Assembly (NCBI GenBank): GCA_001830475.1
Contig: MIAC01000134.1
Location: 561 to 11,476, forward strand
DNA from: Rhodospirillales bacterium RIFCSPLOWO2_12_FULL_67_15
GTDB lineage: Bacteria > Pseudomonadota > Alphaproteobacteria > Rhodospirillales > 2-12-FULL-67-15
DNA: 10,916 nucleotides
Reading direction: 5' to 3'
Of the stretch, positions 2,747 to 10,118 are shown one piece after another. The notes under the pieces are model-generated. The model was not told the DNA's origin. It made no database searches and saw only the letters and a program-made list of their open reading frames with translations. The position numbers and the translations under genes were made by a program. Position 1 is the stretch's first letter. Each line of letters begins with the position of its first letter.

Positions 2747-2749
2747 CTA
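2747..2749 (-). other. In-frame amber codon inside the phoX-like gene
   Basis: On the minus strand the codons read GCC TAG GCC, and codon 4276-3x509 places the TAG in exactly the frame used on both sides. It sits in a family-variable linker between GHILELIPPG and AERFRWTILL. The surrounding 8 bp GCCTAGGC (2745-2752) is a perfect palindrome. No frameshift is needed to join the two halves. A single substitution such as CAG, GAG, AAG or TGG to TAG would explain it; a sequencing error or programmed readthrough remain possible. Confidence 0.9.
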
Positions 2750-4063
2750 GGCGGTCGCGCCCTCGCTTTCGGTTCCCGGGGGAATCAGTTCGAGGATATG
2801 GCCGAAGGGATTGGGCCCGCGCGGGTTGGCCGCGTCGGTCTGGTCGGGCTTGCGGTTCGGGTTGTTGGTGAGCGCGGCGTAGACCCGGCCCGAGCGGGGC
2901 GAAGGTTCCACGTCCTCGGGCCGGTCCATCGGTGTCGCGCCCAGGAGATCGGCGGCGCGGCGGGTTTCGATCAGCACGTCGGCTTGGCTCAGGAACCCGT
3001 TCGCCGGCGTAAGCGGGCCTTGGCCAAACGCCAGCGGCCGCCATTCCAACGTTCCGTCGGCGAAGAACTTGGCGACCGCAAGCGTGCCCCGATCGAGCAA
3101 ATCCGTGGCGGCGGCTGGGTTGGCGGGATCGTAGCGGCCGGCGCTGACGAAGCGGTAGAGGTACTCGCCCGCCTGGTCGTCGCCGGAATAGACGACGACG
3201 CGGCCGTCCTTGAGCAAAGCGCAGGTCGCGCCTTCGTGCTTGAAGCGTCCCAACGCGGTCCGCTTCACCGGCACCGATTTCGGGTCGAAGGGATCGAGCT
3301 CGACGATCCAGCCGAAGCGGTTGGGCTCGTGCGGTTCTTTCTCGACGTTGAAGCGGTCGTGATGGCGCCACCAGCCGTAACGCGACTTGGCCGAAAGCCC
3401 CATCCGCTTGTGATTGCGGGCTTCGTCGGTCATCGCCGGCTCGCCGCCGAAATAGCCGTGGATGTTTTCCTCGGCGATCAGGACCGTGCCCCACGGCGTC
3501 ACGCCGCCGGCGCAGTTGTTGAGGGTGCCGAGCACCTTGGTTCCGGCCGGATCGGCGTGGGTCTTGAGGCGGGGGTGGCCCGCGGCGGGACCCGATATCC
3601 GCATCTCGGTTGCGCCGGTGATGCGCCGGGCGAAGCGGCTTCCCGGGACGACCGCCCAGGTGGCGCCCGATTTCCTCACTTCGAGAATCGAATGGCCGTG
3701 CGCCGCGATTTCGACGTCGGCTTGCGCGCGGGTCACCTTCTCGGCGCGGGTCGAGACGGTGAGCCCCGGCCACATTAGTTCGGCCATGGTGTATTCGTGG
3801 CTGACGCAAAGAAGGCCGCGGTCGGAAGCGCCCGAGCCCCTCGGCAGCGGCATATAGGCCATAAAGTCGTTGTTGTAGCCGAACTGGCGCGCTTGCGCGG
3901 CGGCGTTTTGCCGGGTCGCGTCGAACGCGGGCGCGTCCGCCAACACCGGATCGCCCCAGCGGATCAATACCTGCCCCGCATGGCCGGGCGCGACCGCGTG
4001 GTTCTCGCCGATCGCGTGGCGGGGTGCGCGGAACGTCAGCGTGGAGGCGCCGCGGGTGGCGGC

Positions 4064-4113
4064 GCGCCCCGGTAGGGGCGCAATATTTGACGCGCGCGGG
4101 GATTCGCCCGCGC
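4064..4113. repeat. Two-hairpin palindromic motif in the phoX signal-peptide junction
   Basis: Hairpin 1 is GCGCCCC (4064-4070), loop GGTA, GGGGCGC (4075-4081). AATATT follows at 4082-4087, then hairpin 2: GCGCGGG (4094-4100), loop GATTCG, CCCGCGC (4107-4113). The central 16-mer GCGGGGATTCGCCCGC is identical to one in the mutS 5' region (see 7396-7486), which also has AATATT just before it and another 4-nt-loop hairpin further upstream. The element encodes about residues 55-71 of the PhoX-like protein, between the Tat signal and the mature domain, a place tolerant of insertions. The host gene runs on the opposite strand from mutS, so the element lies in opposite orientation relative to the two genes. 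Confidence 0.55.
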
Positions 4114-4282
4114 CCAGCCCGCCCGGCACGAGGCCCGCGACCGCCGCCCCGGCGGCGGGGGCGAGCAGGCCCATAACCATTTCGCGCCGGCCGATCCGCG
4201 CCGCGATCAGGCGCGCGAGCGAAGGCGCAAGGGAACGCTCGATCGGAACATCGTCCTCGTCGAATTCGCGCGTCATCGAATG

Positions 4283-4290
4283 CCTCACTC
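4283..4290 (-). promoter_or_regulatory. Ribosome binding site of the phoX-like gene
   Basis: GAGTGAGG ends 6 nt before the ATG at 4276 and begins immediately after the maeB stop codon (TAA at 4292-4294). It fixes the start at 4276 rather than at the GTG at 4288, which lies inside it, and suggests translational coupling with maeB. Confidence 0.7.
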
Positions 4291-7280: not shown

Positions 7281-10118
7281 ATGGCGGAAAATGCGCGCGC
7301 GCGGACCAAGGGGCAGGGAAGCCTTTGGGAGGAGACCGAGGCTCCGTCCGAGGCGCCCTCCGACCCCCCCTCCGGGATACAGCCCACCGCCGCGAGCGAA
7401 TCGTCGTGCGAAGGCACGCCTAACGGCGTGACGCGGCAACAAAATATTGGCGGCGGGGATTCGCCCGCCGCCGCCGACGATTTCGCCGCGACCCCGGTGA
7501 TGGCCCAGTATCTCGCCCTCAAGCGCGAGCATCCCGAGACGCTGCTCTTCTTCCAGCTCGGCGATTTTTTCGAGATGTTCTTCGCAGACGCGATCGCCGC
7601 GGCGGGCGCGCTCGACATCGCGCTGACCAAGCGCGGCAAGCATCTCGGCCAGGACATCCCCATGTGCGGGGTGCCGGTGCACAGCTACGAGTCCTATCTC
7701 GCCCGGCTGATCCGCAAGGGCTTCAAGGTCGCGATCTGCGAGCAGCGCGAGGACCCGGCGGCGGCGAAAAAGCGCGGGCCCAAGGCGACGTTGCGCCGCG
7801 AGGTGACGCGGGTGATGACGGCGGGCACGTTGACCGAGGATGCGCTGCTCGATTCCCGGCGCAACAACTTCCTCGCCGCCGTGGCCGAAGCCGAAGGGGC
7901 GCTGGGGCTCGCTTGGCTCGACGTCTCGACCGGCGCGTTCTTCACCGAACCGGTCGGCGCCTTCGCGCTTCCGGCCGCGCTCGCCCGGATCGACCCGCGC
8001 GAGATCGTGCTCGGGGATCAGCTGCTCCAGAATCCCGCCCTGTTCGAGACGCTGCGCGACTGGAAGAAACGGCTTTCGCCGCTGCCCGCCGTCCGCTTCG
8101 ACAGCGCCAACGGCCGGAAACGCCTGGAATCGCTCTATGGGGTCGCCACGCTCGACGCTTTCGGCGCCTTCGGCCGCGCCGAAATCGCCGCCGCCGGCGC
8201 GCTCGTCGATTACGTCGCGCTGACGCAGAAAGGAAAGCTTCCGCGGCTCGCCCGCCCGGTCCGCCAGGGTTCAGGCACCACGATGGAGATGGACGCCGCG
8301 ACCCGGCGCAACCTCGAGCTCGAGGAATCGCTCGCCGGCGAGCGGCAGGGAAGCCTGCTCGGCGCGGTCGATCGCACCGTCTCCGGATTGGGCGCGCGGG
8401 CGCTCGCCGCCCGCCTGGCCGCGCCGCTCGCCGATGTCGCCGCCATCGACCGGCGCCTCGATGCGGTCGAGTTCTTTCTCAAGGACGAGAACATCCGGGA
8501 ACGAACGCGCGCGGCGCTCGCGCGGACCCCGGATATCGAGCGCGCGCTCGCGCGGATCGCCTTGGGCCGCGCCGGTCCGCGCGATCTCGCCGCGATGCGC
8601 GAAGGACTGACGCGCGCGGGCGAATTGCGCGAAATCGTCGCCGCCGCGCGCTTGCCTCCGCCCACGCTGGTCGCCGACGACGTCGAAGGACTCGGCCGGT
8701 GGGGCGCGCTGGTCGACCGGCTCGCCCGCGCGCTCGCCCCCGAACTGCCGGGGCTGCTTCGCGACGGCGGATTCATCGCCGCGGGATACAGCCCGGAGCT
8801 GGACGAGCTCAGAACCTTGCGCGACGAAAGCCGCCGCCTCGCCGCCGCGCTGCAGGCGCGCTACGCGGAAGTGACCGGCGTCGCGGCGCTGAAGGTCCGC
8901 CACAACAACGTGCTCGGTTATTTCATCGAGGTCCCGGCCAAGCAGGCCGATCGCCTGATATCACGTCCCGACCAGCTTTTCATTCATCGCCAGACGATGG
9001 CGAACGCGGTCCGCTTCTCGACCGTCGAGTTGGGCGAGCTCGAAGGACGCATCGCCACCGCGGCGGAAAAGGCGCTCGCCCTCGAACTCAAGCTCTTCGC
9101 CGATCTCAGCGGGGAAATCCTGGGCCGGGCCGAAGACATCGGCCGGACCGCCGCCGCGCTTGCCGGGCTCGACGTCGCCGCCGCGCTCGGCCTCGTCGCC
9201 GCGCGCGAGGGCTGGTGCCGCCCAAGCGTGGACCAAAGCGCGGACCTCTGGGTCGAAGGCGGCCGTCATCCGGTGGTCGAAGCGGCGCTCAAGCGCGAGG
9301 GCCGCGAATCCTTCGTCGCCAACGACTGCGCGTTGACCGACGGCGCCAGGCTCTGGCTCCTGACCGGGCCCAACATGGCGGGCAAGAGCACGTTCCTGCG
9401 CCAGAACGCGCTGATCGCGATCCTCGCCCAAATGGGCTCGTTCGTTCCGGCGCTGAGCGTCCGCCTCGGGATCGTCGATCGGCTGTTCTCGCGCGTCGGC
9501 GCCGCCGACGACCTCGCCCGGGGGCGCTCGACCTTCATGGTCGAGATGGTCGAAACCGCCGCGATTCTCAACCAGGCGGGCGCGCGCGCCTTGGTCATCC
9601 TCGACGAGATCGGGCGGGGCACCGCGACCTTCGACGGGCTCTCGATCGCCTGGGCGACGGTGGAACACCTGCACGAGGTCAATCGCTGCCGGGCGCTGTT
9701 CGCGACCCACTACCACGAGCTGACCGCGCTCGCCGAACGACTCTCCCGCCTCTCCTGCCACGTCCTCAAGGTGAAGGAGTGGAAAGGGGACGTGGTGTTC
9801 CTGCACGAGGTCGGGCCCGGCACCGCGGACCGCTCCTACGGCATCCACGTCGCGAGGCTCGCGGGGCTCCCTTCCGCGGTCGTCGCCCGGGCCGAGGAAA
9901 TCCTGGGCGCGCTCGAGAAATCGGACCGCGCCGACGCCGCCCTCAAGCTCGCGGGCGAGCTTTCGCTCTTCGCCGCGGAAGCCCCTGAACCCCGTTCCGC
10001 CGGAAATGTTAACGAAGCGGAACGAATTTTGCGGGAAACCAACCCCGATTCCCTTTCGCCCAAGGAGGCCCTCGAACTGATCTACCGCCTCAAGGCCGCG
10101 CTCGATCCGGTAAAATGA
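7281..10118 (+). CDS. mutS: DNA mismatch repair protein MutS
   Basis: ATP-dependent mismatch sensor that recruits MutL after replication. The protein has 945 residues. The mismatch-recognition motif is F96-F-E98 (GDFFEMF), offset by 60 from E. coli Phe36/Glu38. The connector contains [15 protein letters not shown], and the clamp/lever region contains [11 protein letters not shown]. The ATPase has Walker [10 protein letters not shown] at 696-704 and Walker B LVILDE ending at 776, then GRGTATFDG and FATHYHEL. Near the C-terminus ELSLF resembles the beta-clamp-binding motif, and the last residues [16 protein letters not shown] match the family's C-terminal dimer/tetramer region. The extra N-terminal 60 residues are low-complexity (Pro, Ser, Ala, Gly), include QGSLW at 12-16, and are partly encoded by palindromic DNA (7396-7486). 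The start is fixed by AAGAGG 6 nt upstream. Divergent from the malic-enzyme run and 39 bp before glnD. Confidence 0.97.
7396..7486. repeat. 91-bp nested palindromic element inside the mutS N-terminal extension
   Basis: The outer inverted repeat is GCGAATCGTCG (7396-7406) against CGACGATTTCGC (7475-7486), complementary except for one extra base. Nested inside are hairpin 1, CACGCC (7415-7420), loop TAAC, GGCGTG (7425-7430), and, after AATATT (7443-7448), hairpin 2, GGCGGCGGG (7449-7457), loop GATTCG, CCCGCCGCC (7464-7472). Hairpin 2 shares the 16-mer GCGGGGATTCGCCCGC and the preceding AATATT with the phoX-like gene (4064-4113). It encodes about residues 39-69, within the part of MutS that E. 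coli lacks. The structure is seen directly; that it is an inserted, dispersed element is inference. Confidence 0.6.

Follow-up and report, generated by a model that had tools for sequence, protein, structure and literature searches.

Twin-hairpin palindromic repeats, probably mobile, lie between and within the genes of one Rhodospirillales genus

Palindromic repeats that insert in frame into protein-coding genes are familiar above all from Rickettsia, whose reduced genomes and weak selection offer an easy excuse for their presence. According to the available text of the source, Rickettsia palindromic elements (RPEs) are palindromes of 105-146 bp that occur as in-frame fusions in 19 reading frames (PMC2229807). 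CGTC REPs, found mostly in Alphaproteobacteria, are described in the accessible part of a second source as including RPE-4 and RPE-6, as lacking a dedicated transposase, and as residing inside some genes, DNA repair genes among them, with dimers or groups that encode 20-30 amino acids (PMC3733652). REPINs, in the portion of the source at hand, are inverted REP doublets that have been proposed to form a single replicating unit moved by RAYTs (PMC3116915). A literature search of open-licence papers returned, among the matches listed, no paper describing the twin-hairpin family reported here.

This family reaches the outcome described for RPEs at high copy number in a Rhodospirillales genus with 67% GC, inside enzymes of DNA repair, replication and metabolism. 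On the combined grounds of high copy number, presence or absence between species, empty sites, both orientations, in-frame retention and repeated peptides, we consider it very probable that the copies are non-autonomous palindromic mobile elements, in one genus so far, that work like RPEs. As with RPEs in the available text of PMC2229807, the family is alphaproteobacterial and palindromic, is dispersed between and inside genes, and has open frames that are read in frame as part of conserved proteins; unlike RPEs, in a comparison by description only, it adds 48-54 nt, consists of two separate GC-rich hairpins and belongs to Rhodospirillales. Since three genomes can be compared (one member is from lake water, deep Lake Baikal) and empty sites are numerous, an old question becomes testable, namely which enzyme spreads tagless palindromes, as does the cost of a 16-18-residue insertion to a working protein.

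The starting point was a sequence-only reading of the window, i.e., the whole 10,916-nt stretch of DNA analysed here, which had proposed that a phoX-like gene and mutS share a two-hairpin palindromic motif. The shared motif is genuine: both copies have a GATTCG loop and an identical 16-bp core, and a search of the window located the 16-mer GCGGGGATTCGCCCGC exactly on the + strand at 4096-4111 and 7453-7468, each occurrence lying within a hairpin predicted by folding. The phoX copy (4064-4115, + strand) belongs to a subfamily that we call A. Its hairpin 1 at 4064-4081 (GCGCCCC 4064-4070, loop GGTA 4071-4074, GGGGCGC 4075-4081) was delimited from sequence, fold and covariance model; it is followed by a 10-nt AT-rich linker, AATATTTGAC, at 4082-4091 (read from the sequence; consensus ATCATTTAAT) and by hairpin 2 at 4092-4115 (GCGCGCGGG 4092-4100, loop GATTCG 4101-4106, 3' arm 4107-4115), which contains the core at 4096-4111 and retains 7 of 9 consensus pairs. 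The A covariance model (R1) scores 74.4 bits at window positions 4060-4117 (L100:4620-4677). The host gene (2747-4288, - strand; PhoX, PF05787, by Pfam) carries the copy antisense and encodes from it about GAGESPRASNIAPLPGR, residues 59-75.

The mutS copy spans 7389-7472 on the + strand, wider than the 7415-7472 first assigned to it, and belongs to a second subfamily, B, here with a nested module, D. Hairpin 1 at 7389-7437 (GCCGCG 7389-7394 paired with CGCGGC 7432-7437), defined from sequence and comparison with un-nested B copies, contains CGAATC at 7397-7402, the reverse complement of GATTCG, as well as module D, 30 nt at 7403-7432 on the + strand (GTGC-GAAG-GCAC 7406-7417; ACGCC-TAAC-GGCGT 7416-7429), the reverse complement of which, plus the adjoining base, starts with CGTC. 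An AT-rich linker, AACAAAATATT, follows at 7438-7448, as read from the sequence, and then hairpin 2 at 7449-7472 (GGCGGCGGG 7449-7457, loop GATTCG 7458-7463, CCCGCCGCC 7464-7472), with the core at 7453-7468. In mutS (7281-10118, + strand) the B copy adds 29 residues (36-64) to the N-terminal extension; the copies thus lie, as had been stated, in opposite orientation relative to their genes, antisense in phoX and sense in mutS.

Several details of the earlier description did not survive this dissection. The first hairpins with 4-nt loops, taken to correspond, are not homologous, the one in phoX being A-type hairpin 1 and the one in mutS (ACGCC-TAAC-GGCGT, 7416-7429) belonging to the third module nested within B-type hairpin 1. 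The shared AATATT is an agreement between two variable linkers, the A consensus linker being ATCATTTAAT, and the differing outer stems reflect subfamily A versus subfamily B rather than compensatory change within one lineage. An Rfam scan of the window gave no match. The phoX-like gene is split by an in-frame stop at 2747-2749 (minus strand) into a 513-codon ORF and a downstream ORF, and in both congeners PhoX reads through this position without interruption; the stop may be a genuine nonsense change or may stem from an error in the draft assembly.

Evidence from the window alone is indecisive as to whether such motifs are chance palindromes in a 67% GC genome, because the number of core matches at up to 3 mismatches is near the shuffle mean (3 versus 1.75) and the phoX copy has a stability ordinary for its composition, with 19/200 and 11/200 shuffles folding equally well on the two strands; the mutS copy is unusually stable for its composition (2/200 and 4/200). 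The genome-wide count decides. In the window's own genome (G000; 2,147,851 bases, 2.15 Mb, in 290 contigs, 76.8% complete), the core occurs 54 times exactly, compared to 0 in a reversed control, and 90 times at up to 2 mismatches (control 7). The exact core was found 53 times in one congener and 17 times in the other (the two congeners, G001 and G002, are drafts like G000) and in none of the 57 other relatives among the 60 genomes searched. Both hairpins and the linker are also shared among copies, and the chance explanation can for practical purposes be set aside.

A search with the A covariance model at E 0.1, with 150 candidates scored per genome, identified at least 105, 92, and 113 places in G000, G001, and G002, respectively. 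Around hits, 160 stretches totalling 1.9 Mb were fetched (532,802, 720,556, and 652,305 bases from G000, G001, and G002), a sample biased by design toward places with hits; nhmmer at 20 bits or more found 248 copies in them, with 67, 64, and 67 A copies and 20, 11, and 19 B copies in the three genomes in the same order. At E 1e-5, the A model matched only G000, G001, and G002 among 317 genomes of the order, in a search that used the stricter filters applied above 40 genomes and scored 17 candidates per listed genome. The B model, run over 385 genomes of the class in a sample from which the congeners are presumably absent, matched G000 and one other alphaproteobacterial genome, G402, which belongs to a different family. 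A pattern scan of named genomes for A returned six contig stretches, all from the MAG Rhodospirillales bacterium Baikal-deep-G60 (the window's own genome possibly having been left out), and viral carriage was looked for with the same pattern, which occurred in 0 viral contigs. The family has so far been found in one genus, and the search of genome and relatives that had been proposed for the motif did yield many copies beyond chance.

Both subfamilies follow a common plan, i.e., a GC-rich hairpin, an AT-rich linker, and a GC-rich hairpin with the loop GATTCG. In A (alignment of 24 copies), GCGCCCC-GATA or GGTA-GGGGCGC is followed by a linker near ATCATTTAAT and by GCGCGCGGG-GATTCG-CCCGCGCGC; in B (alignment of 8), GCCGCGAG-CGAATC-CTCGCGGC is followed by an 11-nt AT-rich linker and by GGCGGCGGG-GATTCG-CCCGCCGCC. 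A variant, C, has GCGGCGG-GATTCG-CCGCCGC as hairpin 2, and further nested copies were also found. Module D (CGTCACGCCGTTAGGCGTGCATTCGCACGACG and variants), seen in the window and in L057, L058, L069, L078, and L128, occurs both nested beside the loop GATTCG of A and B copies and apparently alone, with no A or B hairpin in the 85 nt inspected; hairpin modules thus seem to insert into hairpin modules. In an alignment of 59 A copies from G000, pairing is kept in 96.1% of cells. The covariation that had been proposed as a check is present within A, yet modest: 5 of 16 pairs changed on both sides (equalled by 3/500 shuffles), and 18 cells changed on both sides (0/500 shuffles, and fewer at every slide), 12 of which fall in two adjacent pairs and apparently reflect a single event, variant C. 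Covariation supports the hairpins without depth, since the copies are alike.

Presence and absence at orthologous sites were assessed for single copies with both flanks placeable in another genome, with many junctions ambiguous by several bases. In this set, 44 copies have an empty orthologous site, and the length difference is a multiple of 3 nt for 39 of them (25/27 in called ORFs, 6/7 at ORF edges, and 8/10 outside ORFs). The typical insertion measures 48 nt (A, 16 codons) or about 54 nt (un-nested B, 18 codons); A adds exactly 48 nt in 16 of 36 cases, and 16 of the remaining 20 A lengths are multiples of 3. Because copies outside ORFs also tend to be multiples of 3, this statistic is partly inherent in the 48-nt unit. 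The clearest insertion is a B copy of 54 nt in mutS of G002, which adds 18 codons in frame between GCCGCCGCG and GCCGCCGCG; the corresponding site in the domain III region of the window's mutS (8639-8650, + strand) is empty, as it is in G001. By protein alignment, PhoX and MutS of G001 and G002 lack the two copies seen in the window.

Ferrochelatase (HemH) provides a view across more distant proteins. In an alignment of 25 of 120 listed proteins, the G002 protein (P0001) among them, the insert is found in 4 (P0001, P0004, P0005, P0006) and is missing in 21, including both of the closest proteins (P0002, P0003) as well as the most distant. The best-matching solved sequences of ferrochelatase, MutS, and class II ribonucleotide reductase are likewise without an insert, and since most ferrochelatases, including the most distant, and the solved homologues do not have it, the insertion is derived. 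The patchy HemH pattern reflects either repeated insertion at a single site or loss. Homologues P0005, P0006, P0007, and P0018 show other length differences, from a few to about 26 residues and mainly in the C-terminal part, which are perhaps other inserted repeats in relatives.

To locate copies relative to genes, we used a home-made codon model, seeded with five genes of the window, which it recovered. By this model, 126 of 232 usable copies are flanked on either side by 8 or more codons of the ORF that contains them, and in 81 of the 232 both flanks are coding in one continuous frame; the other copies comprise 27 in an ORF near its end, 46 overlapping ORF ends, and 33 outside ORFs. The class with both flanks coding makes up 35% of copies, compared to 64% of 4,640 random 54-nt placements, and in-gene copies are hence about twofold under-represented yet plentiful. 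These classes presuppose an open frame through the copy, which the test on empty alleles does not. Where the empty allele is gene-covered (31 insertions, i.e., 29 single copies and two adjacent pairs), 26 of 31 leave the reading frame intact and show no stop in the insert or in the 60 nt flanking it on each side, and 5 break the frame or meet a stop; orientation is even, with 16 antisense and 15 sense. In-frame insertion into conserved protein genes, a feature of RPEs, is also found here, and the hosts can be named by their domains. Insertion into structural RNA genes, a further point of comparison with RPEs, was looked for with an Rfam scan of 40 loci covering part of the copies, which gave only five tRNAs and one RNase P; none of these genes overlaps the copy for which its locus was chosen, and in this set the copies match no known RNA family.

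The sequence-only reading had placed the copies in tolerant protein regions, but copies of the family are not confined to such regions, although in-gene copies occur at about half of random expectation. Of 22 host proteins listed, 18 were scanned with Pfam, and in 7 of these the insert lies within a domain. These are MutS (insert residues 416-435, inside domain III, 302-616), HemH (182-198, domain 4-333), GlnD (261-277, domain 211-365), CobD/CbiB (335-352, domain 116-427), a SpoU methylase (232-249, domain 154-313), RecG (411-428, DEAD domain 267-443), and class II ribonucleotide reductase (330-347, domain 198-767). In other hosts, including PriA (462-478), an HhH-GPD/NUDIX glycosylase, CobN, glutamate synthase, and an ABC protein, the insert is at a domain edge or between or before domains; one of the 18 proteins has no Pfam match.

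As a consequence of insertion, one of a few recurring peptides of 16-18 amino acids is encoded in many otherwise unrelated proteins. Recurrent strings are RAGESPRALNDAPLSGR (A, antisense frame 1), ARPDRGASFNARGDSPAR (A, sense frame 0), and a 15-residue string (B, sense), and GESPRALNDAPLSGR is one example of an encoded insert. When 64 A copies with both flanks coding were assigned to frame classes by pattern matching, 24 used antisense frame 1, 23 used sense frame 0, 13 used others, and only 4 used sense frame 1 (RAPIGAHHLMRAGIRPR), which is equally open. Blind insertion filtered by stops alone would use three open frames alike, and selection on the encoded peptide is thus the likely explanation of the frame bias; an insertion bias could also produce it. 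Just past the position of the window's right end, glnD of G001 (L168:9728-9780) carries an A copy, GARANPRARHMMRPYRG, that reads the frame with a stop in the consensus, the linker variant of this copy being stop-free. Taken with the copy number and the empty sites, frame retention and recurrent peptides agree with the earlier suggestion of a dispersed palindromic family able to enter coding sequence in frame.

With regard to mobilization, the copies could belong to the known REP/REPIN superfamilies, tagged with GTAG or CGTC and moved by a RAYT (Y1) transposase. B has the plan of a REPIN, with a single hairpin type repeated in inverted orientation (loops CGAATC and GATTCG), and an inverted hairpin doublet with a spacer, as REPINs are characterized in the available part of PMC3116915, is seen clearly in B and less so in A. 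CGTC REPs, for their part, are short stem-loops that mostly form head-to-head dimers and are sometimes inside ORFs; in the accessible text of the source they are, with RPE-4 and RPE-6, known in genes, common in Alphaproteobacteria, and without a dedicated transposase (PMC3733652). Canonical-looking CGTC REPs also occur in the same genomes, and nested module D bears CGTC. However, neither end of A or of B has a conserved tag. The A and B consensus sequences show no terminal CGTC (or TGTC/CCTC), no AT at the stem start, and no CCA tail; within the copy plus 8 nt on either side, CGTC is present in 47/198 A and 18/50 B copies (some via module D) and GACG in 48/198 and 14/50. GTAG occurs within the same limits in 54/198 A and 0/50 B copies (CTAC in 2 and 1), and in the A copies inspected it falls in the GGTA-G loop of hairpin 1, not outside the stem, where a GTAG end tag would be.

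The search for the transposase also speaks against this assignment. Y1 (RAYT) transposase genes (PF01797) were found in none of the three genomes of the genus, drafts of which two are 77-81% complete (control matches in 5 of 14), and a RAYT as mobiliser in this genus accordingly found no support. In G402, by contrast, four Y1 transposase genes accompany a look-alike doublet family, different in sequence and built from GGCGGCCG-CTGATC-CGGCCGCC, an AT-rich linker, and GGCGCGCG-GATCAG-CGCGCGCC; one of these Y1 genes (C3:21572-21904) lies 472 bases from a one-mismatch core match. REPINs, moreover, are defined in extragenic space with RAYTs, whereas here 81 of 232 copies are within a coding frame. 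We therefore regard membership in the REP/REPIN superfamilies as unlikely, and as far as tested the family is outside any named family, new but of a rare known kind. In G402 the look-alike family is dispersed and also present in tandem arrays (L210-L240), with a spacing of 57-60 nt in most of those examined, and its core has 379 matches at up to 2 mismatches versus 98 in the control. The canonical-looking CGTC REPs (CGTCATTCCCGCGAAAGCGGGAATCCA) lie beside the A/B family in stretches of G000-G002, e.g., L058, L060, L063, and L066; in several a second GC-rich arm follows. A loose pattern for these REPs has 19 matches, some of them by chance.

For an element of the RPE-like kind that we favour, the unit may extrude as hairpins on single-stranded DNA, where a trans-acting enzyme would recognize the hairpins and copy or move the unit. 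Insertion would then proceed without a detectable target-site duplication, perhaps favouring CGCGCC-like targets, and purging would remove insertions that disrupt the frame, run into a stop, or spoil the fold. Since the unit is a multiple of 3 and several of its frames are open and encode hydrophilic sequence, many insertions in genes are tolerated, and these remain as short additions to the protein. A duplication, as would be expected of an IS-derived MITE, was sought in 118 A copies, the sequence to the left of the hairpin-1 loop being set against that to the right of hairpin 2 (offsets 42-55), and showed no excess over shuffles. Exact CGCGCC lies close to the junction in 9 of 28 comparisons with empty sites (7 when the 25 distinct sites are each counted once), compared to 7.8% of random windows; this preference is a lead only, because the sites are alignment-chosen and the element ends resemble the motif.

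A different possibility is that the copies are selected functional RNA or DNA signals, such as terminators, mRNA stabilisers, or methylation or segregation sites, and not mobile DNA. Predicted hairpins with some covariation would suit such a role, as would an enrichment of GANTC sites in copies of G000 and the RAMA domain in G000 and G002; yet copies are present or absent at orthologous sites between species, stand in both orientations inside genes and at positions within enzyme domains, and in 6 of 30 classified intergenic cases lie between divergent genes. The loop sequence itself is also at odds with a methylation signal in that the GTTAAG loop of G002 loses GANTC and G001 keeps the GATTCG loop without a RAMA match. 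We judge the signal explanation highly improbable, and the mobile-element reading remains the one we follow.

The GATTC of the loop forms a GANTC site, which we take to be the CcrM target. In G000 stretches, 93 of 1,546 GANTC sites are within copies, which account for 0.87% of the DNA, and across the three genomes copies make up 0.5-0.9% of the stretches and hold 2-6% of GANTC sites. The RAMA domain, which presumably marks CcrM, was matched in G000 and G002, as well as in Caulobacter, and was not found in G001. The enrichment is real, but with the loop kept in G001 without a RAMA match and the site dropped from many copies in G002, CcrM and GANTC are at most a possible reason for the loop.

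Turnover of this loop may provide a handle on the recognition step. Among hairpin-2 loops that could be read (21, 20, and 20 copies remaining unread in G000, G001, and G002, respectively), GATTCG was found in 64/66 in G000 and 53/55 in G001; in G002 (n=66), 30 are GTTAAG, which is no GANTC site, and 21 are GATTCG. The GTTAAG change affects A, B, and nested copies (L122). A tentative and, in our estimation, rather doubtful proposal is that hairpin 2 is a recognition module that has been replaced family-wide, by hairpin-templated conversion or by re-insertion, with the loop read by a putative non-Y1 enzyme; if true, the genus would have a self-updating twin-hairpin system that continually rewrites short peptides within its own enzymes. 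Twelve A sites are filled in G002 and in another genome, and at 9 of them the loop is TTAA in G002 versus ATTC-type in the other (3 are otherwise). At 6 of the 9 the lengths are no more than 6 nt apart; at the other 3 they are 11 to 27 nt apart, and the copies there may be different insertions; re-insertion at hot spots could likewise give rise to loop differences. Linkers at shared sites differ on average at 2.7 of 10 positions, compared to 4.3 in random pairs (resampling 0.009; 7 of 13 listed pairs parsed), a small sample that favours old copies with an exchanged loop over fresh insertions.
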